35,523 nt of DNA from Candidatus Paraprevotella stercoravium. GTDB lineage: Bacteria; Bacteroidota; Bacteroidia; Bacteroidales; Bacteroidaceae. The notes beneath the pieces are model-generated. The model was not told where the DNA came from, did not search any database, and saw nothing but the letters and a program-made list of their open reading frames with translations. Positions 1,430-21,050 of this stretch are shown here, piece by piece (within the stretch, counting starts at the first letter, position 1; each line of letters opens with the position of its first letter). The stretch spans positions 1-35,523 of the forward strand of contig CALUIU010000034.1 of assembly GCA_944320795.1 (NCBI GenBank), given 5' to 3'. Position numbers and translations under genes: made by a program.

Positions 1430-2932
1430 ATGAGTGACAGACTTTTTATTTTTGATACAACACTTCGTGATGGAGAGCAGGTTCCAGGCTGCCAGTTGAA
1501 TACGGTGGAGAAAATTCAGGTAGCCAAGCAACTGGAAGCCTTAGGAGTAGACGTGATTGAAGCCGGTTTCCCGATTTCCAGTCCGGGTGATTTTAATTCG
1601 GTAATCGAAATTTCCAAGGCTGTGACCTGGCCTACCATTTGTGCTTTGACACGTGCCGTGCAGAAAGATATTGACGTAGCTGCCGAAGCTTTACAGTTTG
1701 CCAAGCACAAACGTATCCATACAGGTATTGGAACATCAGATTCACATATAAAATATAAATTCAATTCCAATCGCGAGGAGATTATTGAGCGTGCGGTTGC
1801 TGCTGTAAAATATGCGAAACGTTATGTAGAGGATGTTGAATTTTATGCGGAGGATGCCGGACGTACGGACAATGAATACTTGGCCCGCGTGGTAGATGCG
1901 GTGGTTAAGGCCGGAGCTACTGTTGTCAATATCCCGGATACTACCGGTTATTGTTTACCACAGGAATTTGGAGCTAAAATCAAGTACCTGATGGAACACG
2001 TTGATGGCTTGTCTGCCGGAAAGGCAATTCTTTCAACCCATTGTCATAATGATCTGGGTATGGCTACAGCCAATACGATTGCCGGTATCATGAATGGTGC
2101 CCGTCAGGCTGAGGTTACTATCAACGGTATCGGAGAGCGTGCCGGTAACACTTCGCTCGAAGAAGTTGCCATGATTCTGAAATGTCATAAGGGAATAGAT
2201 ATTGATACCAATATCAATACTCAGAAGATATATCCGACCAGCCGTCTGGTTTCCAGTTTGATGAATATGCCGGTGCAGCCCAACAAGGCGATTGTGGGAC
2301 GTAATGCTTTTGCTCATTCCAGCGGAATTCATCAGGATGGCGTCTTGAAGAATGTACAGACTTATGAGATTATGGATCCAAAGGATGTAGGTATTGACGA
2401 CAATGCGATTGTATTGACAGCCCGAAGCGGACGTGCTGCTTTGAAGCATCGTTTGAGTGTATTGGGTGTTGAATTGGAAGGTGAACGTCTGGATGCCACA
2501 TATCAGGAGTTCCTGAAGCTGGCCGATAAGAAGAAAGAGGTAAACGACGACGATATTCTGATGTTGGCCGGTGCCGACCGTGCTGCTGCCCACGCCATCA
2601 AGCTGGATTATCTGCAGGTGACCACCGGTATGGGAGTCAAATCTGTAGCTTGTATCGGCTTGGATATTGCCGGTGAGAAGTTTGAGGCTTCTGCCAGCGG
2701 TAATGGTCCGGTTGACGCAGCCATCAAGGCTCTGAAGAATATAATCAAGCGTCATACTGTATTGAAAGAGTTTACTATTCAGGCAATCAGTAAGGGATCG
2801 GATGATGTCGGTAAGGTACATATGCAGGTAGAATATGACGGACATGTATACTATGGCTTCGGTGCCAATACGGATATCGTATCCGCTTCAGTAGAAGCAT
2901 ATATCGACTGTATCAATAAATTTAAAAAGTAA
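1430..2932 (+). CDS. leuA: 2-isopropylmalate synthase
   Basis: 500 residues. Condenses acetyl-CoA with 2-oxoisovalerate, the first committed step of leucine synthesis. The N-terminal TIM barrel carries DTTLRDGEQ (R13 and metal ligand D14), metal ligands H204 and H206 in HCHND, and [14 protein letters not shown]. The C-terminal third (about 370-500) matches the LeuA allosteric dimer domain that binds leucine for feedback inhibition. Length is normal for a full synthase with regulatory domain. First structural gene of the operon, 24 nt after the attenuator terminator, so it should be controlled both at transcription and by feedback. Confidence 0.96.
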
Positions 2933-2942
2933 TTTCAGGACA

Positions 2943-4340
2943 ATGGCTAATACTTTATTTGATAAGATATGGGACGCACATGTGGTACAGAATGTATCCG
3001 ACGGTCCTACCCAACTTTATATTGATCGTTTATATTGCCATGAGGTGACCAGTCCTCAGGCTTTTGAAGGCCTGCGTGCCCGCGGTCTGAAATGTTTTCG
3101 TCCGGAGCGTATTTACTGTATGCCCGATCATAATACACCTACCCACGATCAGGACAAGCCTATCGAAGATCCGGTTGGAAAGACACAGGTAGATACCTTG
3201 GCGCGAAATGCCAAGGAGTTTGGACTGACTCATTTTGGCATGATGCATCCGAAGAATGGTATTATTCATGTGGTAGGACCGGAAAACGGTCTTTCTTTAC
3301 CCGGAATGACTATTGTATGCGGCGACTCTCATACTTCTACACACGGAGCTATGGGAGCTGTAGCTTTCGGAATCGGAACTTCTGAAGTGGAGATGGTCAT
3401 GGCTTCGCAGTGCATCTTGCAGCAGAAGCCGAAATCTATGCGTATTACGGTTAAAGGTTCTTTGGGTAAAGGAGTTACGGCAAAGGATGTGGCTTTGTAT
3501 TTGATGAGCAAGATGACTACTTCCGGAGCTACCGGTTATTTTGTGGAGTATGCCGGTTCTGCCATTGAGCAGCTGACCATGGAGGGGCGTCTGACTTTAT
3601 GTAATCTTTCTATCGAGATGGGTGCCCGTGGCGGATTTATCGCTCCAGATGAGGTAACTTTTGCTTATCTCAAGGATAAAGAATATGCTCCGAAGGGATC
3701 TGACTGGGATCAGGCTGTAGCCTACTGGAAAACGTTGCGTAGCGGTGATGATGCTGTTTTTGACAAGGAAATCGAGTTTGATGCGGCTGATATCGAGCCT
3801 ATGGTAACTTATGGTACCAATCCGGGTATGGGAATGGGTATTACGAAGAATATTCCTTCTTTGGATCAGATTGAAGCAGCCGGTCAGGCCTCTTTCAAGA
3901 AAGCACTCGATTATATGGGATTTGCACCGGGAGAGCAGATGATCGGTAAACCGGTTGACTATGTTTTCTGTGGCTCTTGTACCAATGGAAGAATAGAGGA
4001 TTTCCGTGCTTTTGCTTCGATTGTGAAGGGACGTAAGAAAGCCGATCATGTGATTTGTTGGTTAGTGCCGGGTTCATGGGCAGTGGCACGTCAGATTGAA
4101 GAGGAAGGTTTGGATCAGATTTTCAAGGAGGCTGGCTTTGAGTTGCGTCAGCCGGGATGTTCGGCCTGTCTGGCTATGAACGATGACAAGATTCCTGCCG
4201 GAAAACTGTCCGTATCGACTTCAAACCGTAACTTCGAAGGCCGTCAGGGGCCTGGAGCCCGTACGGTATTGGCCAGTCCGTTGGTGGCAGCTGCCGCGGC
4301 AGTAACGGGAGTGATAACAGATCCAAGAACATTAATGTAA
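2943..4340 (+). CDS. leuC: 3-isopropylmalate dehydratase, large subunit
   Basis: 465 residues, 10 nt after leuA. With LeuD it isomerises 2-isopropylmalate to 3-isopropylmalate. Aconitase-superfamily features: [10 protein letters not shown] in the N-terminal part and three [4Fe-4S] cysteines, C346 in CGSCTNGR plus C406 and C409 in PGCSACL, at the spacing of known LeuC proteins. Length is standard. An exposed cluster of this kind is oxygen-sensitive, which fits an anaerobe. The same dimer could also process citramalate made by the paralogue two genes downstream. Confidence 0.96.
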
Positions 4341-4350
4341 AGACGATTCC

Positions 4351-4947
4351 ATGAAACAGAAATTTGACATCATAACAAGCACTTGTGTGCCCTTGCCTTT
4401 GGAGAATGTAGATACCGACCAGATTATTCCGGCTCGTTTTCTGAAAGCTACAACCAAGGAAGAGAAGTTTTTCGGTGAGAACCTGTTCCGCGACTGGCGA
4501 TATAATCCGGATGGTTCTCTAAATCCCGATTTTGTATTAAATAATCCCAAATACAAGGGAGAAATATTGGTTGCCGGGAAGAATTTTGGAAGTGGTTCCA
4601 GCCGAGAGCATGCGGCTTGGGCCATTGCCGGCTATGGCTTCCGTGTGGTTATCAGCAGTTTCTTTGCGGATATTCATAAGAATAACGAACTGAATAATTT
4701 TGTTTTGCCGGTTGTCGTGAGTGAAGAATTCCTTGCAGAATTATTTGCTTCCATTGAACAGGACCCTGCAACTGAAGTTGAAGTCAATGTTCCGGATCAG
4801 ACGGTAACGAATAAGGCTACCGGTAGAAAAGAACATTTCGAGATTAACGGATACAAGAAATATTGCTTGATGAACGCGCTTGATGATATAGACTTCCTGC
4901 TGGAAAATAAGGACAAAATCGAAGCCTGGGAGCAGAAGCGCGTTTAA
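4351..4947 (+). CDS. leuD: 3-isopropylmalate dehydratase, small subunit
   Basis: 198 residues, 10 nt after leuC. Supplies the swivel domain of the LeuCD isomerase. The N-terminus has the family VPLPLENVDTDQIIPARFL segment, and GSGSSREHAAWAI is the substrate-binding loop. Length matches bacterial LeuD (about 200 residues). Cotranscribed with leuA and leuC. Confidence 0.95.
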   Translation: MKQKFDIITSTCVPLPLENVDTDQIIPARFLKATTKEEKFFGENLFRDWRYNPDGSLNPDFVLNNPKYKGEILVAGKNFGSGSSREHAAWAIAGYGFRVVISSFFADIHKNNELNNFVLPVVVSEEFLAELFASIEQDPATEVEVNVPDQTVTNKATGRKEHFEINGYKKYCLMNALDDIDFLLENKDKIEAWEQKRV

Positions 4948-4985
4948 GCCTTTCAAATAAAACCTAAAATTAAATCCACAAGTAT

Positions 4986-6560
4986 ATGGAACAGAATAAA
5001 ACGGTTCGGGTAGAAATTATGGACACCACCTTGCGGGATGGCGAACAGACCAATGGTGTGAGTTTCCTGCCTCACGAGAAACTGATCATAGCCAAGGCTT
5101 TGTTACAGGATCTGAATGTGGACCGGATTGAAGTTGCTTCGGCTCGGGTTTCTGACGGAGAGGTCGAAGCTGTAAGTAACATTTGCCGGTGGGCGGCTCA
5201 AGTGGGTATGCTGGATCGGGTCGAAGTTCTGGGATTTGTGGACGGACATGCTTCTCTCGACTGGATTGCAAACTGTGGTTGTAAGAAAATCAACCTGCTT
5301 TGTAAGGGGTCACTCAATCATTGTCTGAACCAGTTGAAAAAGACTCCGGAGGAGCATATTGCTGATATCCGGAACTCATTGGCTTATGCCGGACAGTTAG
5401 GAATCAAGGTGAATGTTTATCTGGAAGACTGGAGTAACGGAATCAAAAATTCGCCGGAGTATGTCTTTCAGATTGTAGATGCCTTGCAGCATGAACGTAT
5501 TGAACGCTTTATGTTGCCCGATACTTTAGGAGTCCTTAATCCGCTTCATCTGGTCAGCTATATGCGCAAGATGGTGAAACGCTATCCGCATCTGCGTTTT
5601 GACTTTCATGCCCACAATGACTATAATTTAGCCATATCCAATGTACTGGCTGCCGTGTTGGCTGGCTGTCGCGGTATACACACTTCTGTAAACGGATTAG
5701 GTGAGCGTGCCGGAAATGCGCCTTTGGCCAGTGTGCAGGCTATTCTGAAGGACCAGTTTCAGGCCGAAACGGGTATTTGCGAGAATCGTTTGAATGAAGT
5801 GAGCCGTCTGGTGGAGAGTTATTCGGGCATAGCCATTCCTCCCAACCAGCCGATTACCGGTGACAGTGTGTTTACCCAAGTGGCAGGAGTACATGCTGAT
5901 GGAGACAATAAGGCGAGTCTTTATTGCAACGCATTGTTGCCGGAGCGGTTTGGGCGTAAGCGCGAATACGCGTTGGGAAAGAATAGCGGTAAAGCGAATA
6001 TCCTGAAGAACCTGGAAGAGTTGGGGTTGGAACTGACCCCGGAGCAGACCCGGAAAGTGACGGAGCGCATTATAGAATTGGGAGACAAGAAGGAACTGGT
6101 CACACAGAATGATTTGCCTTTTATCGTAGCCGATGTGCTGAAGCACGGTGCCCCTGAGGAACATGTGCGTTTGTTGAGTTATATGGTCACTACCGCCTAT
6201 GGGCTGAAGCCGATGGCTTGCGTCCGTCTGGACATAAACGGCCAGGCTTATGAGGCCCAGGCATCGGGAGACGGACAGTTTGACGCATTTATGCGGGCCA
6301 CGATGGCTATTTACAAAGAGCGATTGCATCGTGACTTTCCCTGGCTGGCCAATTATAATGTGACCATTCCGCCTGGAGGTCGTACAGATGCTTTTGTGCA
6401 GACTGTCATTACCTGGAACTGGAATCAGAAAACCTTGCGAACCCGCGGACTGGATGCGGATCAGACAGAGGCAGCCATTAAGGCAACGATCAAAATGCTG
6501 AATCTGATAGAGAAGGATTATACTTGTGAGGTTCCTGCAGAACATGCGGATAATTCGTAG
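4986..6560 (+). CDS. Second alpha-isopropylmalate/citramalate synthase-like enzyme
   Basis: 524 residues, 38 nt after leuD. Same DRE-TIM fold as Leu[10 protein letters not shown] (R17, D18), metal ligands H208 and H210 in HAHND, NGLGERAGNAPL, and a C-terminal LeuA-type regulatory domain (about 400-520). It is clearly diverged from leuA in this operon: after the DRE motif it reads TNGVSFLPHEKL instead of [12 protein letters not shown], and it carries a WSNGIKNSPEY segment. The citramalate synthase (CimA) group is of similar length. If it is CimA, it would make (R)-citramalate from pyruvate and acetyl-CoA, and LeuCD and LeuB would carry this to 2-oxobutyrate for isoleucine. A second isopropylmalate synthase or homocitrate-type enzyme remains possible. 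Confidence 0.8.
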   Translation: MEQNKTVRVEIMDTTLRDGEQTNGVSFLPHEKLIIAKALLQDLNVDRIEVASARVSDGEVEAVSNICRWAAQVGMLDRVEVLGFVDGHASLDWIANCGCKKINLLCKGSLNHCLNQLKKTPEEHIADIRNSLAYAGQLGIKVNVYLEDWSNGIKNSPEYVFQIVDALQHERIERFMLPDTLGVLNPLHLVSYMRKMVKRYPHLRFDFHAHNDYNLAISNVLAAVLAGCRGIHTSVNGLGERAGNAPLASVQAILKDQFQAETGICENRLNEVSRLVESYSGIAIPPNQPITGDSVFTQVAGVHADGDNKASLYCNALLPERFGRKREYALGKNSGKANILKNLEELGLELTPEQTRKVTERIIELGDKKELVTQNDLPFIVADVLKHGAPEEHVRLLSYMVTTAYGLKPMACVRLDINGQAYEAQASGDGQFDAFMRATMAIYKERLHRDFPWLANYNVTIPPGGRTDAFVQTVITWNWNQKTLRTRGLDADQTEAAIKATIKMLNLIEKDYTCEVPAEHADNS

Positions 6561-6619
6561 CGCTCTGAAAAAAGTATTGCTAATAAGTAAATGAAGAAAA
6601 TAAATAAAACGAATAAATT

Positions 6620-7681
6620 ATGGATTTGAAGATTGCCGTATTGCCGGGTGATGGAATTGGCCCTGAGATTTCCGAACAGGGAGTAGCTGTCATGTCGGCT
6701 GTTTGTGAGAAGTTTGGACATAAAGTATCTTATGAGTATGCTCTTTGCGGAGCTGCAGCCATAGATGCTGTAGGAGATCCATTTCCGGAAGATACTTTCC
6801 AGAAATGTATGGCTGCCGACGCAGTGCTTTTCTCTTCTGTGGGTGATCCTAAGTTTGATAATGACCCTACGGCAAAGGTCCGTCCGGAGCAAGGCTTGTT
6901 GGCCATGCGTAAGAAACTGGGACTTTTTGCCAATATCCGTCCGGTGGAAACTTTTGAGTGTCTGATTCACCAGTCGCCTTTGAAAGAGGAGCTGGTGCGC
7001 GGTGCTGATTTTATTTGTATCCGCGAGTTGACCGGTGGTATGTATTTCGGAGAAAAGTATCAGGATAATGAGAAGGCATATGATACGAATGCCTATACTC
7101 GTGGTGAGATTGAACGTATTCTGAAGGTTGCCTTTGAATATGCCCGTCGTCGCCGCAAGCATCTTACTGTTGTGGATAAGGCCAATGTCTTGGCGTCAAG
7201 CCGTCTGTGGCGTCAGATTGCCAAGGAAATGGCACCTCAGTATCCGGACGTTGAGACCGACTATATGTTTGTAGACAACGCGGCTATGCGTATGATTCAG
7301 GATCCACGTTTCTTTGATGTGATGGTTACAGAGAATACCTTTGGCGATATTCTTACTGATGAAGGATCATGTATTACCGGTTCCATGGGTTTGCTGCCTT
7401 CTGCTTCTACAGGTGAACATACACCGGTTTTTGAACCGATTCATGGTTCCTGGCCTCAGGCAAAGGGATTGAATATAGCCAATCCTCTGGCGCAGATTCT
7501 TTCTGTAGCTATGCTCTTTGAGTATTTTGATTTGAAAGAAGAAGGCGCTATGATCCGCCAGGCTGTCAACGCTTCGTTGGATGCTCATGTACGCACTCCG
7601 GAAATTCAGGTTGAAGGTGGTGCCAAATATGGTACGAAAGAGGTTGGCCAATGGATTGTTGATTATATCAAAAAGGCTTAA
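6620..7681 (+). CDS. leuB: 3-isopropylmalate dehydrogenase
   Basis: 353 residues, last gene of the operon, 59 nt after the leuA paralogue. Oxidatively decarboxylates 3-isopropylmalate to 2-oxoisocaproate with NAD. Motifs: [10 protein letters not shown] at the N-terminus, [25 protein letters not shown] with the catalytic Lys, the metal-binding segment [13 protein letters not shown], and [10 protein letters not shown]. Length is standard for LeuB. No promoter was recognised in the 59-nt gap, and an intrinsic terminator follows 19 nt after the stop. Confidence 0.96.
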
Positions 7682-16069: not shown

Positions 16070-16105
16070 TACAGGGGCGCGTTAATGCGGCTCCTGTATT
16101 TTTTT
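16070..16105 (+). terminator. recQ terminator overlapping the amidase stop codon
   Basis: The stem TACAGGGGC (16070-16078) pairs with 16090-16098 (one G-T pair), with further GC pairs inside, and a T7 run (16099-16105) follows. The T run runs into the amidase stop codon (16104-16106, minus strand). A second 10-bp hairpin (16020-16029 with 16049-16058) lies in the last recQ codons. Confidence 0.8.
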
Positions 16106-16742
16106 ATTCATCCAGTGAGTTCAGGTATTGCTTTACGGCCTGATATATGCAATAGGCCAGTTTCCGGCGTCCTCTTCTGGATTTCATATATTTTTCTTCT
16201 TTGGCATTTGAAATAAATCCTACCTCAGTCAGCACGGCCGGCATATTGGTATTTCTCAATACGGCAAAATTGGCTTTTTTTACGCCCCGGTTTTTTCTTT
16301 TAGCCCGTTCGGTATATTCTTTTTGAATGAGACGGGCCAGCTTCAGACTCCATGGATTATGTCGCTTGCTCCATACAAAAGTCTCTGTTCCTTCAGCGTA
16401 TCCGCGGGCGGAATTGGCATGGATGGAGATGAAGAGATCCGCTTCGCAGAAATTGGCAAAATTGGCTCTTTCGTTCAGAGAAATAAATTCGTCCCGTTCT
16501 CGGGTTAGAATCACGTCTACGCCCCGAGTACGTCTGCGGATATATTTTTCCGCTCTTTTGGCAATTTTCAGGGTGACTTCCTTTTCCTGTATTTTTCGTC
16601 CGGCAGCTCCCTGATCTTTACCGCCGTGTCCGGCATCAATTACAATTTTAAATCTTTCCCGGGCTTGTGTTGGCAGGGGTAAAGCAAATAGCGGAACAAT
16701 CAGTGCCCATACTATTCCGTATAAATACAAGACCTGTTTCAT
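16104..16742 (-). CDS. N-acetylmuramoyl-L-alanine amidase (Amidase_3)
   Basis: 212 residues from ATG 16742. Start chosen because it gives a signal peptide (hydrophobic segment about 4-23, cut near TQA-R) and because ATGA overlaps the stop of the upstream gene. Cuts the lactyl-amide bond between glycan and peptide in peptidoglycan. Zinc ligands: H39 in DAGHGG, E53 in QEKE, H108 in SIHAN. Catalytic E173 lies in TEVGFISN. It is a minimal AmiC-like catalytic domain with no AMIN, SPOR or LysM domain, so localisation must come from elsewhere. Four-nt overlap with the coiled-coil gene implies translational coupling. Confidence 0.92.
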   Translation of the reverse strand: MKQVLYLYGIVWALIVPLFALPLPTQARERFKIVIDAGHGGKDQGAAGRKIQEKEVTLKIAKRAEKYIRRRTRGVDVILTRERDEFISLNERANFANFCEADLFISIHANSARGYAEGTETFVWSKRHNPWSLKLARLIQKEYTERAKRKNRGVKKANFAVLRNTNMPAVLTEVGFISNAKEEKYMKSRRGRRKLAYCIYQAVKQYLNSLDE

Positions 16743-19534
16743 TCTGAAATTTTGCTTTTGAATTCTTCTTCGCAAAATCGCATCGTATCGAGCTTTTCCT
16801 GTTGATGAATCAGCTGTGCCTGACAAGCTGCAATTTTTCCGATAATGTTTTTGCGCTCCTGTTCCAGTGCTTCTTTGCGTTCGATCAGCATGGTATGCAC
16901 GTCTTTTTCGTTGCCTTCGCTCAGATAGTTTCCGTCAGCCTGGTGAGCAGCCAGTTCTGCCTGAAGCAAATCTACCTTTTCCTGTGTTATACTCAGTTCA
17001 AACTGCAGGTTGCGGGTAGTCTGGCGGGTTTGTTGCCAGTCAGTGCCGGCGGCAAATAATTGTTGCAGTTCTCCAAACTGTACGGGAGAATGTGACGCAT
17101 TGTATTTTCGCATCCAGATGTCCAGATCTGATTTTTCCTGTAGTACCATCTGCTCCAGTGTCTTGTCGCAGCTTTCTATCTGTTCCAAAGCTGCAGCTTT
17201 CTGGTGTAACTCCTGTTTGTTCTGATCCGTCAGTTTCAATAGTACCTCTTCTTCCTTTTGTGATTCCTCGAGTTTCCGTACGGCTTCGTCATAGACCTGT
17301 TTCGCTTCCTGAGTTCCGATCAACTTTTCCTGTGCGTTATTACATTCTTTCTTCAGGTTTTGGATCTGTTCCAAACGCTTGGATGAGGCCTCGTGCGCGT
17401 TTACATTCTTTTTCAGCCATTCCTCAAGCATTTCTATTTTCAGGTTTATCTGCGAAAGTCTTGCTTTGCAGATCTCGGTATCTGTAAGCAGCTCCTTATG
17501 CATTTTAAGCATGTTCTGAATCTGTATTTTCAGGCCCTCGTGATTATTTTGCCATAGTTTGTACCATCCGGGAATGGAAATCGCCTTTTCCAGGTCGTCA
17601 TACATTTCGCTGAACCGTTCGTTTTGTTTGCTGATTTCTTCCTGAAGACGTCCTACACGATAGGCCCAAACTTGACAGCCAGTATTCAGTTCATTAAAGC
17701 GCATCATGACATCATTCTTTTCGTTTTCCTTTTTGGAAATTTTTCCGTTGATGGAGTTTATATGCGTCTGGTGGAAGTTGAAAATTTCCAGTTCCTTTTC
17801 TGCTTCTTCGGCATCTTGTCCGGTTCGTTCGATAAGTTGTTGCAGCATGCTTCTACGTGCTGCCTGATTGGTCGAAGCCGAGCAATCCTTGAAGGAGCGG
17901 TCCAGATCCTCAAACTTTTTCCATTCCTGAATATTCTGTTGGTGCATGTTTCGGATCATCTCCAGATGTTTCTTTTCCACCTCCAGAATTCCGGTTTCCC
18001 GGGCATACTTCATACGCATGTCCTGTAACAGATCGTGTTTTTTGTTATATTCCGCCTCGATCATTTCCATCTCTGTTTTCATTTCCGAGATGAGTTTGCT
18101 CTGCTCCAGCATGGTGTCAGAATGATAAGGGTGGTGTGTGGCACCGCACACGCTGCAACTGCTGCCTTCTTTCAGGTCACTGCGCAATTGAATGACATTC
18201 TGGCTTTTGCTCACGGTGAAGGCATATTTCCTTTCTTCCGTCTTTTCTTTCAGAATATTCACTTCTGTTGTCAGTTGCTCTATGGCGTTATGTGTGCTGT
18301 CAGCCTGTGTCTGCAAGCGGTATATTTCCTGTATCTTTTCGTCGATCCAGTTATATCCCTGGGAAATATGGTTCCACAGTACTTGCGCGCTAAGGAGCAT
18401 TTGCATACGGCGTTTCAGTTCCATGGTTCTGGACTGTAATTTTTCACCGTCCGTACCATAATTACTTTTCAGATGCATGGATAACTCGTTTTGCAAACTG
18501 CTGATTTGCGATTCCAGATCCTTGATGTTCATGAAAAGCTTGTTGAGCTGTGTGTTCTGCTCACTTTGTTTTCTCAAGGCGCTGTCCAGTTCCTGTTGTG
18601 TTTTTTCTTTTCGGGTTTTCAGAACCTGAAACAGATCCAGCTTGACCAGAATACCTTCTCCCTTTTCGATCATTTTGAGGTGAACTTCTGTTTCCTGTTT
18701 GCTTAGATTCAGTCTTTCCTGTTTCTTGTATTCTTCCTCCTGGTTCTGCTTCAGTTCATTGATTTCCTTATTCATTGAGGCAATGTTCATTTGCCACTGA
18801 CTGTATACCTCGTTTTCTTTTTCTTCGTTCAGTTCCAGTATCTGAAGTTTTCCGTTGTTCATGTAAACTTCGGTCAGCAGATCGTCAATGTGCTTCAGGG
18901 CAGCCTCATTGTCTTTTCTTTTCAGAGTCTGCTGCTGATATTTTTCTTTTGTCTGATTGAATTGTTTTTCTGCTTTTTCCTTTTCCTGATGCAGATTATG
19001 AATCTGTTCCTTACAGATATCCCGGAGCTGTCCGATGAATTCTATTCTTTGAAAGCAGCCTTGTTGTGATTCGAATGTTTCAAATCGTTCCAAGTCCTGT
19101 ACGGCTTTCTGCACGGAAGCATATTGCTTGTTCAAGCGGTACAGTTCATTCTTCTCCTTTTCGAGGGAGTGGGATAATGTGATGAATTTTCTGTACCACT
19201 CTTGCTGTTGGCGTATTTTATCAAGTGAGTTTTCAATATTTTTTAGTTTGGTGTCGTTCAGACGCAAGGCTTCATTCAGTTTACTGGTTTCGTTAGTAGT
19301 AAGTAAACTGTTTTCCGCTTGTTTGCGTTTAATTTCCGTTCGTATGAGAGATTTGAACAGAGAGGTGACACTGTCTGGCATTTTTTCGCCGTATTTGTGT
19401 TCAAACCACAGAGACGCTGCTTCTTCTGCCGTAAGGTTCTGTGGCAGGTTTTCCGGTGTCAAAGGCAGGATGTCCTTATTGTTTTCTGTCTTTTCCGGAA
19501 TATTTTCTTGATGTGATTTTCGAAAAAACTTCAT
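16739..19534 (-). CDS. Headless SbcC/Rad50-like zinc-hook coiled-coil protein
   Basis: 931 residues from ATG 19534; the frame stays open to 19753 but that part overlaps the hisS start and follows the promoter, so it is not counted. Almost all of it is heptad-rich coiled coil. A zinc hook, CSVCGATHHPYH with C460 and C463, sits almost exactly in the middle, matching CPxCGxxxHPY of SbcC. The last part (about 820-925) also resembles the SbcC descending arm. However, the N-terminus (MKFFRKSHQENIPEKT...) has no Walker A, and the protein stops right after the arm, before any LSGGE signature or Walker B. It is therefore an SbcC-like protein without ATPase heads. Intact frame, consensus promoter, coupled to an amidase gene. 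No signal peptide or TM segment. Function unknown. Confidence 0.82.
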   Translation of the reverse strand: MKFFRKSHQENIPEKTENNKDILPLTPENLPQNLTAEEAASLWFEHKYGEKMPDSVTSLFKSLIRTEIKRKQAENSLLTTNETSKLNEALRLNDTKLKNIENSLDKIRQQQEWYRKFITLSHSLEKEKNELYRLNKQYASVQKAVQDLERFETFESQQGCFQRIEFIGQLRDICKEQIHNLHQEKEKAEKQFNQTKEKYQQQTLKRKDNEAALKHIDDLLTEVYMNNGKLQILELNEEKENEVYSQWQMNIASMNKEINELKQNQEEEYKKQERLNLSKQETEVHLKMIEKGEGILVKLDLFQVLKTRKEKTQQELDSALRKQSEQNTQLNKLFMNIKDLESQISSLQNELSMHLKSNYGTDGEKLQSRTMELKRRMQMLLSAQVLWNHISQGYNWIDEKIQEIYRLQTQADSTHNAIEQLTTEVNILKEKTEERKYAFTVSKSQNVIQLRSDLKEGSSCSVCGATHHPYHSDTMLEQSKLISEMKTEMEMIEAEYNKKHDLLQDMRMKYARETGILEVEKKHLEMIRNMHQQNIQEWKKFEDLDRSFKDCSASTNQAARRSMLQQLIERTGQDAEEAEKELEIFNFHQTHINSINGKISKKENEKNDVMMRFNELNTGCQVWAYRVGRLQEEISKQNERFSEMYDDLEKAISIPGWYKLWQNNHEGLKIQIQNMLKMHKELLTDTEICKARLSQINLKIEMLEEWLKKNVNAHEASSKRLEQIQNLKKECNNAQEKLIGTQEAKQVYDEAVRKLEESQKEEEVLLKLTDQNKQELHQKAAALEQIESCDKTLEQMVLQEKSDLDIWMRKYNASHSPVQFGELQQLFAAGTDWQQTRQTTRNLQFELSITQEKVDLLQAELAAHQADGNYLSEGNEKDVHTMLIERKEALEQERKNIIGKIAACQAQLIHQQEKLDTMRFCEEEFKSKISE

Positions 19535-19561: not shown

Positions 19562-19569
19562 CAAAGTTA
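19562..19569 (-). promoter_or_regulatory. -7 box of the zinc-hook/amidase unit
   Basis: The minus strand reads TAACTTTG, an exact TAnnTTTG match, 27 nt before ATG 19534. ATTG lies about 23 nt upstream of it. This supports ATG 19534 as the start and a dedicated transcript for the pair. Confidence 0.7.
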
Positions 19570-19685: not shown

Positions 19686-21050
19686 ATGGCAACGAAACCA
19701 AGTATACCAAAAGGAACACGGGATTTTTCGCCCGTAGAAATGGCGAAGCGCAACTATATTTTTGATACAATCCGCAGTGTGTATGCTCTGTATGGATTTC
19801 AGCAGATTGAAACGCCTGCAATGGAGAATCTGTCTACTTTGATGGGTAAGTATGGTGAAGAGGGCGACAAACTGTTGTTTAAGATTCTGAATTCCGGAAA
19901 TTTCCTGTCGGGAGTGGATACGGCAGACTTGTCTTCTGAAAACACCAATAAACTGGCTGCTCAGTTATGCGAAAAAGGTTTGCGTTATGATCTTACGGTG
20001 CCTTTTGCCCGCTATGTAGTGCAGCACAGAGAAGAATTGACCATGCCGTTCAAGCGTTACCAGATCCAACCGGTTTGGCGTGCAGACCGTCCTCAGAAAG
20101 GACGCTATCGTGAGTTCTATCAATGTGATGCTGATGTCGTTGGCAGCGATTCCTTATTGAATGAGGTGGAATTGATGCAGATTGTGGATACGGTATTTAC
20201 CAAGTTCGGAATCCGTGTCTGTATCAAAATCAATAACCGCAAGATTCTGACCGGAATAGCAGAAATGATCGGTGAGTCCGATAAAATCGTAGACATTACT
20301 GTGGCAATGGATAAGCTCGACAAGATCGGTCTTGAAGCTGTTAATGCGGAGCTGGCAAAAGCTGGAATCAGTGCCGAGGCGATTGAGAAACTGCAACCGA
20401 TCATTCTGCTGGAAGGTAGCAATGAGGAAAAACTGAACACGATGAAGCAGGTGTTGGCAGAAAGTGAAATCGGCCTGAAAGGTGTTGAGGAGTGTGCTTT
20501 CGTATTGCAGACCCTGCAGAATTTGGGATTGAAAAACGAGTTGGAGCTTGATCTGACATTGGCACGCGGACTGAATTATTATACCGGCTGTATTTTTGAA
20601 GTGAAGGCTTTGGATGTTCAGATCGGAAGCATAACCGGTGGCGGACGTTACGATAACCTTACTGGAATCTTCGGTATGCCAGGACTGAGCGGTGTCGGTA
20701 TTTCTTTTGGTGCAGACCGTATCTTCGATGTTTTGAACCAGCTTGACTTGTATCCTAAAGAGGCAACAACAGGAACAGAACTGCTGTTCGTAAACTTTGG
20801 CGCTGCTGAAACCGCTTATTGTTTGCCTATTCTGGCAGTTGCCCGACAGGCAGGAATCCGTTGTGAAATCTATCCGGACAGTGCCAAGATGAAAAAACAG
20901 ATGAGTTATGCCAATGCCAAGAATATTCCATTTGTAGCCATTGCCGGTGAAAATGAAATGAATGAACAGAAAGTGACCCTGAAAAACATGATTACCGGCG
21001 AGCAGATGCTGGTGAGTCAGGAAGAACTGATTCAGGTGGTCAAGAAATAA
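19686..21050 (+). CDS. hisS: Histidyl-tRNA synthetase
   Basis: 454 residues. Class II synthetase that charges tRNA-His. GTRDFSP is at the N-terminus. Motif 2 spans W131-R135 and beyond ([21 protein letters not shown]), the histidine-binding segment is [10 protein letters not shown], and motif 3 is in [13 protein letters not shown]-terminal anticodon-binding domain occupies about 360-454. Slightly longer than the E. coli enzyme, as usual in Bacteroidota. Own promoter and own terminator, so a single-gene unit. Confidence 0.96.

Follow-up and report, generated by a model that had tools for sequence, protein, structure and literature searches.

We analyzed a 35,523-nucleotide stretch of DNA from Candidatus Paraprevotella stercoravium (hereafter the window; contig CALUIU010000034.1 of assembly GCA_944320795.1, positions 1 to 35,523 of the forward strand), in which the minus strand carries a gene for a headless SbcC, a 931-aa zinc-hook protein of the SbcC/Rad50 type that has no ATPase heads (16739..19534, with the ATG at 19534 and the stop ending at 16739). 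A preliminary description of this gene, made from the letters alone, had proposed an SbcC-type CxxC hook at the center of the protein, two coiled-coil arms, no heads and an intact frame, and had named as checks a search for the head domains, a look at orthologs near hisS, and a search for a separate full-length sbcC in the same genome. We found that the hook is central (C460-S-V-C463, followed by GATHHPYH), with 459 residues ahead of C460 and 468 beyond C463. On the minus strand, the hook CSVCGATHH (residues 460–468; 18131..18157), which is delimited by the sequence and by our alignment of 19 headless sequences (alignment A1), lies between an N-terminal arm (residues 85–453; 18176..19282) and a C-terminal arm (residues 473–930; 16745..18118), both delimited by an AlphaFold model and by hhalign. 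Residues 1–63 (19346..19534, minus strand) form an N-terminal extension that lies outside the SbcC alignment, which begins at residue 64; the LTAEEAASLWFEHKYGEKMP helix in this extension is kept across the window's genus and is present in two of the six second-genus rows of alignment A1 (loci L050 and L055).

When we searched Pfam with the window protein, neither the N-terminal head lobe of SbcC/Rad50 that carries Walker A (PF13476) nor the C-terminal lobe that carries LSGGE and Walker B (PF13558) was listed even at E 10, a negative that is limited by the HMMER filters, which remove most weak matches. The full-length SbcC at locus L068 matches PF13476 at 5.2e-26. Against NCBIfam, the window protein gave weak matches to coil stretches of the Rad50/SMC type, the best of them at 5.4e-5 and 22 bits where the cut-off is 300. 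The AlphaFold model, built with 19 orthologs, has long helices at residues 80–453 and 473–930, a loop at 454–472 that holds the hook, and no strand anywhere (mean predicted local distance difference test score 79.8; predicted template modeling score, pTM, 0.30). Since the model is all helix and has no strands, no ATPase head is hidden in the window protein, and Pfam, a regular-expression search and the structure model each gave no hidden ATPase motif. The observation of an intact headless zinc-hook gene is confirmed.

We then asked how this protein relates to SbcC. An hhalign comparison of the headless proteins with the arms of full-length SbcCs from sister genera is colinear over 861 columns (E 1e-124). 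The aligned part of the headless protein begins at residue 64, ends close to the C-terminus, and falls on approximately residues 210–1070 of full SbcC. In contrast, the reversed control gave E 0.002 and three shuffles in blocks of seven columns gave 7e-4, 9.7e-5 and 7.7e-5, with two of the three still aligning 9–10 columns at the hook; these controls make it unlikely that the SbcC match is a coiled-coil artifact. The colinear alignment as compared to its controls therefore describes an SbcC minus both head lobes, cut at the arm bases, and as judged from this homology the headless gene is a descendant of the SbcC of its bacterial family. A 'YNASHSPVQFGELQQLF....DW' element in the C-terminal arm is common to the window protein and full SbcC. 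Both the homology of the long arms and their helices are computed, and their path is presumably antiparallel. Most of the long sister-genus proteins are SbcCs: they carry Walker A and LSGGE, their Walker B reads DEGFG and their hook CPxCGxxHH (we take the motif names, here and for SbcD, to be the usual ones), and most of the full SbcCs that we read adjoin SbcD. A search of the sequences of solved structures returned generic coiled coils (keratin, LINE-1 ORF1p, IpaD) and epimerases at E 0.9. Foldseek with the headless model returned coiled coils of SMC, MukB and Rad50 at low template modeling scores, and these mixed matches are therefore not discriminating.

The headless gene is present, with no internal stops, in 17 of the 18 genomes of the window's genus (g1), the single genome with no match being 70% complete, and its presence is therefore more than chance. 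In the family sample, 34 of 151 genomes and 6 of 30 genera have matches to the window protein. In a second genus (g11), the headless frames are approximately 890–970 aa long (615 aa in two genomes); in g13, g16 and g26, the matching frames measure approximately 1200–1320 aa. Besides the window genome, there are two weak matches among 247 genomes of the order (at most three candidates scored per genome) and three hook-region matches among 395 genomes of the phylum (at most two scored per genome). Heads are found in none of the 29 copies whose surroundings we read (15 in the window's genus and 14 in the second), so the orthologs near hisS do not make the window gene a truncation; 18 further second-genus genomes have a match and lie outside the set read for the headless gene. 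CxxCGATHH is invariant across all 19 rows of alignment A1, 32 of 34 headless genomes retain the hook, and conservation is highest in the block that holds it (residues 451–480; 0.87). The dN/dS values (the ratio of nonsynonymous to synonymous substitution rates) of six headless pairs are 0.080, 0.097, 0.041, 0.086, 0.158 and 0.111, with dS over 2 in three of the six. Values for four full-SbcC pairs are similar (0.055–0.280), and three pairs were saturated and gave no value (the window pair, L154–L155 and L065–L088). The frame is thus under purifying selection, in keeping with the preliminary view that it is not a decayed sbcC.

To see whether the headless gene occurs together with an ordinary SbcCD, we scored 34 genomes with a headless or hookless gene (17 from g1, 14 from g11 and 3 from g16). 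The window genome does have a separate SbcD–SbcC pair (417 and 1138 aa; G000:C6); its SbcC hook is of another type (CPVCGNRVE), and this SbcC was not reported at E 1 when we searched with the headless protein. SbcD is over its family cut-off in 9 of the 34 genomes, and an SbcC Walker-B match is over cut-off in those nine only. Neither is over cut-off in the other 25 or, when genomes at least 90% complete are considered, in 16 of 23; the Walker-B profile detected all four full-SbcC control genomes (G126, G165, G230 and G042). No SbcD lies at the headless locus. We rejected heads supplied in trans by split genes: all Walker-B matches over cut-off are the SbcCs of the nine genomes plus three frames of 1140–1147 aa that lie in three of the same nine and are probably MukB/JetC-like, a search that covered matches over cut-off and not weaker ones or smaller P-loop proteins. 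Comparison across these genomes shows selection for a head-free rod, including in genomes where no SbcD is over cut-off. The window genome has a strong SbcC_Walker_B match (7.5e-23; G000:C29:24828-25103) in a 1144-aa frame, probably MukB/JetC-like. Ordinary SbcCD is patchy in the window's genus (7 of 18 genomes), and the identity of its full-length SbcCs to the window genome's copy ranges between 28% and 58%, a spread that could reflect replacement or reacquisition of the gene.

Head loss was not a single event. In three genomes of a third genus (g16; G310, G253 and G294), headless proteins lie in frames of 856–927 aa at a different place, where the genes (L199, L200 and L201) lie after an nrdD-like gene and, at two of the three loci, are separated from it by an nrdG-like gene; we take these neighbors to belong to anaerobic ribonucleotide reduction. 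We built a tree of the arms from 67 rows chosen among the fetched loci, with several full-length loci unused. It includes 13 same-genus headless loci out of 17, without the 5'-extended L075 and L077, the G014 locus and a G002 fragment; L087, a short-armed SbcC, is also excluded. The g16 headless proteins group with three g16 full SbcCs (Shimodaira–Hasegawa-like approximate likelihood ratio test support 100), apart from the clade of g1 and g11, and an approximately unbiased test made without the two hookless rows rejected a single clade of all 28 headless rows (p 5.7e-49). The tree and this test support at least two independent losses of the heads.

Among the head-bearing rows of the tree, 7 of 37 have lost catalytic motifs (these being chosen rows and not a frequency); six lack both Walker A and LSGGE, and L063 lacks LSGGE only. 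On starred branches alone, at least three changes are needed to explain the six g13 rows, and the seventh row, from g16, is separate from them. We read five SbcD partners, of which three have lost nuclease motifs (all four of those inspected in G096, three in G029 and one in G123) and two, in G076 and G093, look intact; the SbcDs of G056 and G239 were detected by profile match. We modeled one dead-motif SbcC, and strands are present and Foldseek matches it to the heads of E. coli SbcCD, so that the predicted head fold is kept. At L061 (G096), L062 (G029) and L065 (G123), a motif-lost SbcD stands beside a motif-lost SbcC and both are kept full-length; these SbcCDs are apparently inert. What the preliminary description had missed is that the window gene stems from one of two or more independent decapitations in an SbcC lineage that also has full-length members with dead motifs.

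The surroundings of the gene are conserved in part. A promoter-like box, TAACTTTG, lies 35 nt ahead of the headless ATG (19562..19569, minus strand), and a TAnnTTTG box is found 32–38 nt ahead of the start in all 15 same-genus loci read and within 150 nt of it in 11 of 14 second-genus loci, as compared to a background of 358 of 6470 (5.5%) 150-nt windows. The genes adjoining the headless gene are an amidase gene and hisS. The Amidase_3 gene (16104..16742, minus strand; PF01520, E 1.7e-57) has an ATG that overlaps the headless stop (ATGA), as at L071, L072 and L083; the promoter box and the overlap with the next gene were both part of the preliminary description and both hold. An amidase adjoins the headless gene in 11 of the 15 same-genus loci, and no amidase neighbor was seen in the 14 second-genus and 3 third-genus loci read. 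Divergent from the headless gene is a gene that we take to be hisS, partly from the earlier naming (19686..21050, plus strand). The two genes are close together at 14 of 15 same-genus loci and at 12 of 14 second-genus loci; in L082 and L158, one or two frames stand between them.

We consider it probable that a decapitated SbcC has been kept as a stand-alone structural rod, in which two copies are joined by their zinc hooks and the ends hold a partner or DNA. An SbcC of the family lost both halves of its ATPase head by cuts at the arm bases, while its coiled-coil arms, presumably antiparallel, and its CxxC hook remained, and selection preserves the product as a structural protein in its own right. 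Two copies joined hook-to-hook via one zinc ion would make a long rod, whose free ends, including the new N-terminal helix in some lineages, may hold a cellular partner or DNA, so that tethering would need neither ATP nor SbcD. The most likely function is that of such a rod, independent of ATP and SbcD, which would tether something or hold it at a distance; DNA is one possible cargo. We infer the zinc binding, the dimerization and the cargo, and a tether role is possible. One study describes the Rad50 hook as a stable dimerization module that is exchangeable with the SMC hinge (PMC6969161), and it is because of this exchangeability that a hook-to-hook zinc dimer and a long tether are suggested.

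Work on Rad50 usually treats the arms and hook as accessories to a nuclease driven by ATP. In these bacteria the engine was removed at least two times and its motifs were disabled at several other places, while the arms were conserved; that gut bacteria keep the arms alone suggests that the arms can have a job of their own. A broader and more tentative idea, which we regard as doubtful, is that SbcC arms and hook do a conserved job independent of ATP and nuclease in part of the family, for example bridging DNA where there is no Smc; if true, it would explain the repeated loss of ATPase and nuclease, by mutation or decapitation, while the rod was kept. The headless proteins make a stand-alone role of arms and hook directly testable where the normal complex is not found. 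Our searches of open-access titles and abstracts, which do not extend to subscription papers, listed no description of a headless or repeatedly inactivated SbcC.

Several points weigh against the stand-alone rod. The pTM of 0.30 leaves the path of the rod unsettled, and same-genus copies share 31–78% identity with the window protein in alignment A1, indicating fast arm evolution. The absence calls for SbcCD rest on cut-offs of hidden Markov models and on contig assemblies, with frames of phosphoesterase or P-loop size below cut-off left unread. The arm tree is quick, with some long branches and uneven composition, and the approximately unbiased test was designed after the tree was seen. In two second-genus genomes (G054 and G135), the 615-aa version at the same place by hisS (L085, 3484-5331; L086, 5102-6949) keeps the proximal arms and lacks the distal arms and the hook. 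This hookless form is under selection (dN/dS 0.083), so the hook is not needed everywhere: either the function changed in this lineage or what is essential lies outside the hook.

Other explanations account for parts of these data. The preliminary description had suggested a partner of the real SbcCD complex, or an inhibitor of it. Such a protein could act by joining SbcC via mixed hooks, and the window genome does contain SbcD and SbcC, whose CxxC hook could pair with that of the headless protein. However, 25 of 34 headless genomes have neither over cut-off, which strongly disfavors an obligate role with SbcCD, and the window genome's SbcC is of another type and was not reported at E 1 in the search with the headless protein, so that we find this explanation very improbable. 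Still less credible is a reading of the gene as an SbcC in decay toward a pseudogene; although the family offers a series from full to dead-motif to headless to hookless forms, and most headless genomes have no SbcD over cut-off, the frame has no internal stops, persists in nearly all same-genus genomes behind a conserved promoter box with dN/dS of 0.041–0.158, keeps CxxCGATHH in every row of alignment A1, and retains the same part after two independent origins.

The ATGA overlaps and the adjoining same-genus amidases could instead point to a cytoplasmic scaffold for cell-wall remodeling, tied to the co-transcribed amidase. We consider this quite unlikely, since the second and third genera showed no amidase neighbor, the third-genus copies follow nrdD/nrdG-like genes, and by eye the amidases start with export-like sequences whereas the headless protein does not. 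There is a slim chance that the protein is a chromosome organizer that bridges DNA as a passive condensin stand-in where Smc is lacking. Smc is over the TIGR02168 cut-off in none of 30 family genomes tested, with no more than 16 candidate places scored in each, and in 10 of 14 controls; a published study reports no known condensin in two Bacteroidetes and mentions unidentified SMC complexes (PMC10197239), and the exchange of hook and SMC hinge (PMC6969161) would also fit. In contrast, a protein with no ATPase cannot extrude loops, DNA bridging is purely putative, and matches occur in 6 of 30 family genera and weakly in two order genomes besides the window's; with so few genera matched, such a role cannot explain Bacteroidales in general and stays a minor hypothesis.

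As compared to known systems, the stand-alone rod proposed here is closest to SbcC/Rad50 of the SbcCD and Mre11-Rad50 complexes, with which the protein shares colinear arms, the central CxxC hook and an 'FN..HSP.Q..EL..F' element near the base of the C-terminal arm. It differs from them in lacking both lobes of the head and an SbcD at the locus, and in being kept in genomes where SbcCD is not found. The dead-motif SbcCs of sister genera have the same arms and hook but retain an SbcD gene and, in the member modeled, the head fold. The archaea-specific SMC-related protein (ASRP; NF045487) has a weak coiled-coil similarity, at which the window protein scores 22 bits where the curated threshold is 300. 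Wadjet JetC and Lamassu LmuB also have SMC-like coiled coils, and one third-genus headless protein weakly matches LmuB (4e-7), but the window protein matches no PADLOC family at E 1. Elsewhere in the window, positions 1430-7681 hold what we take, by eye, to be a leucine biosynthesis cluster, in which two LeuA-like genes flank leuC/leuD-like genes.
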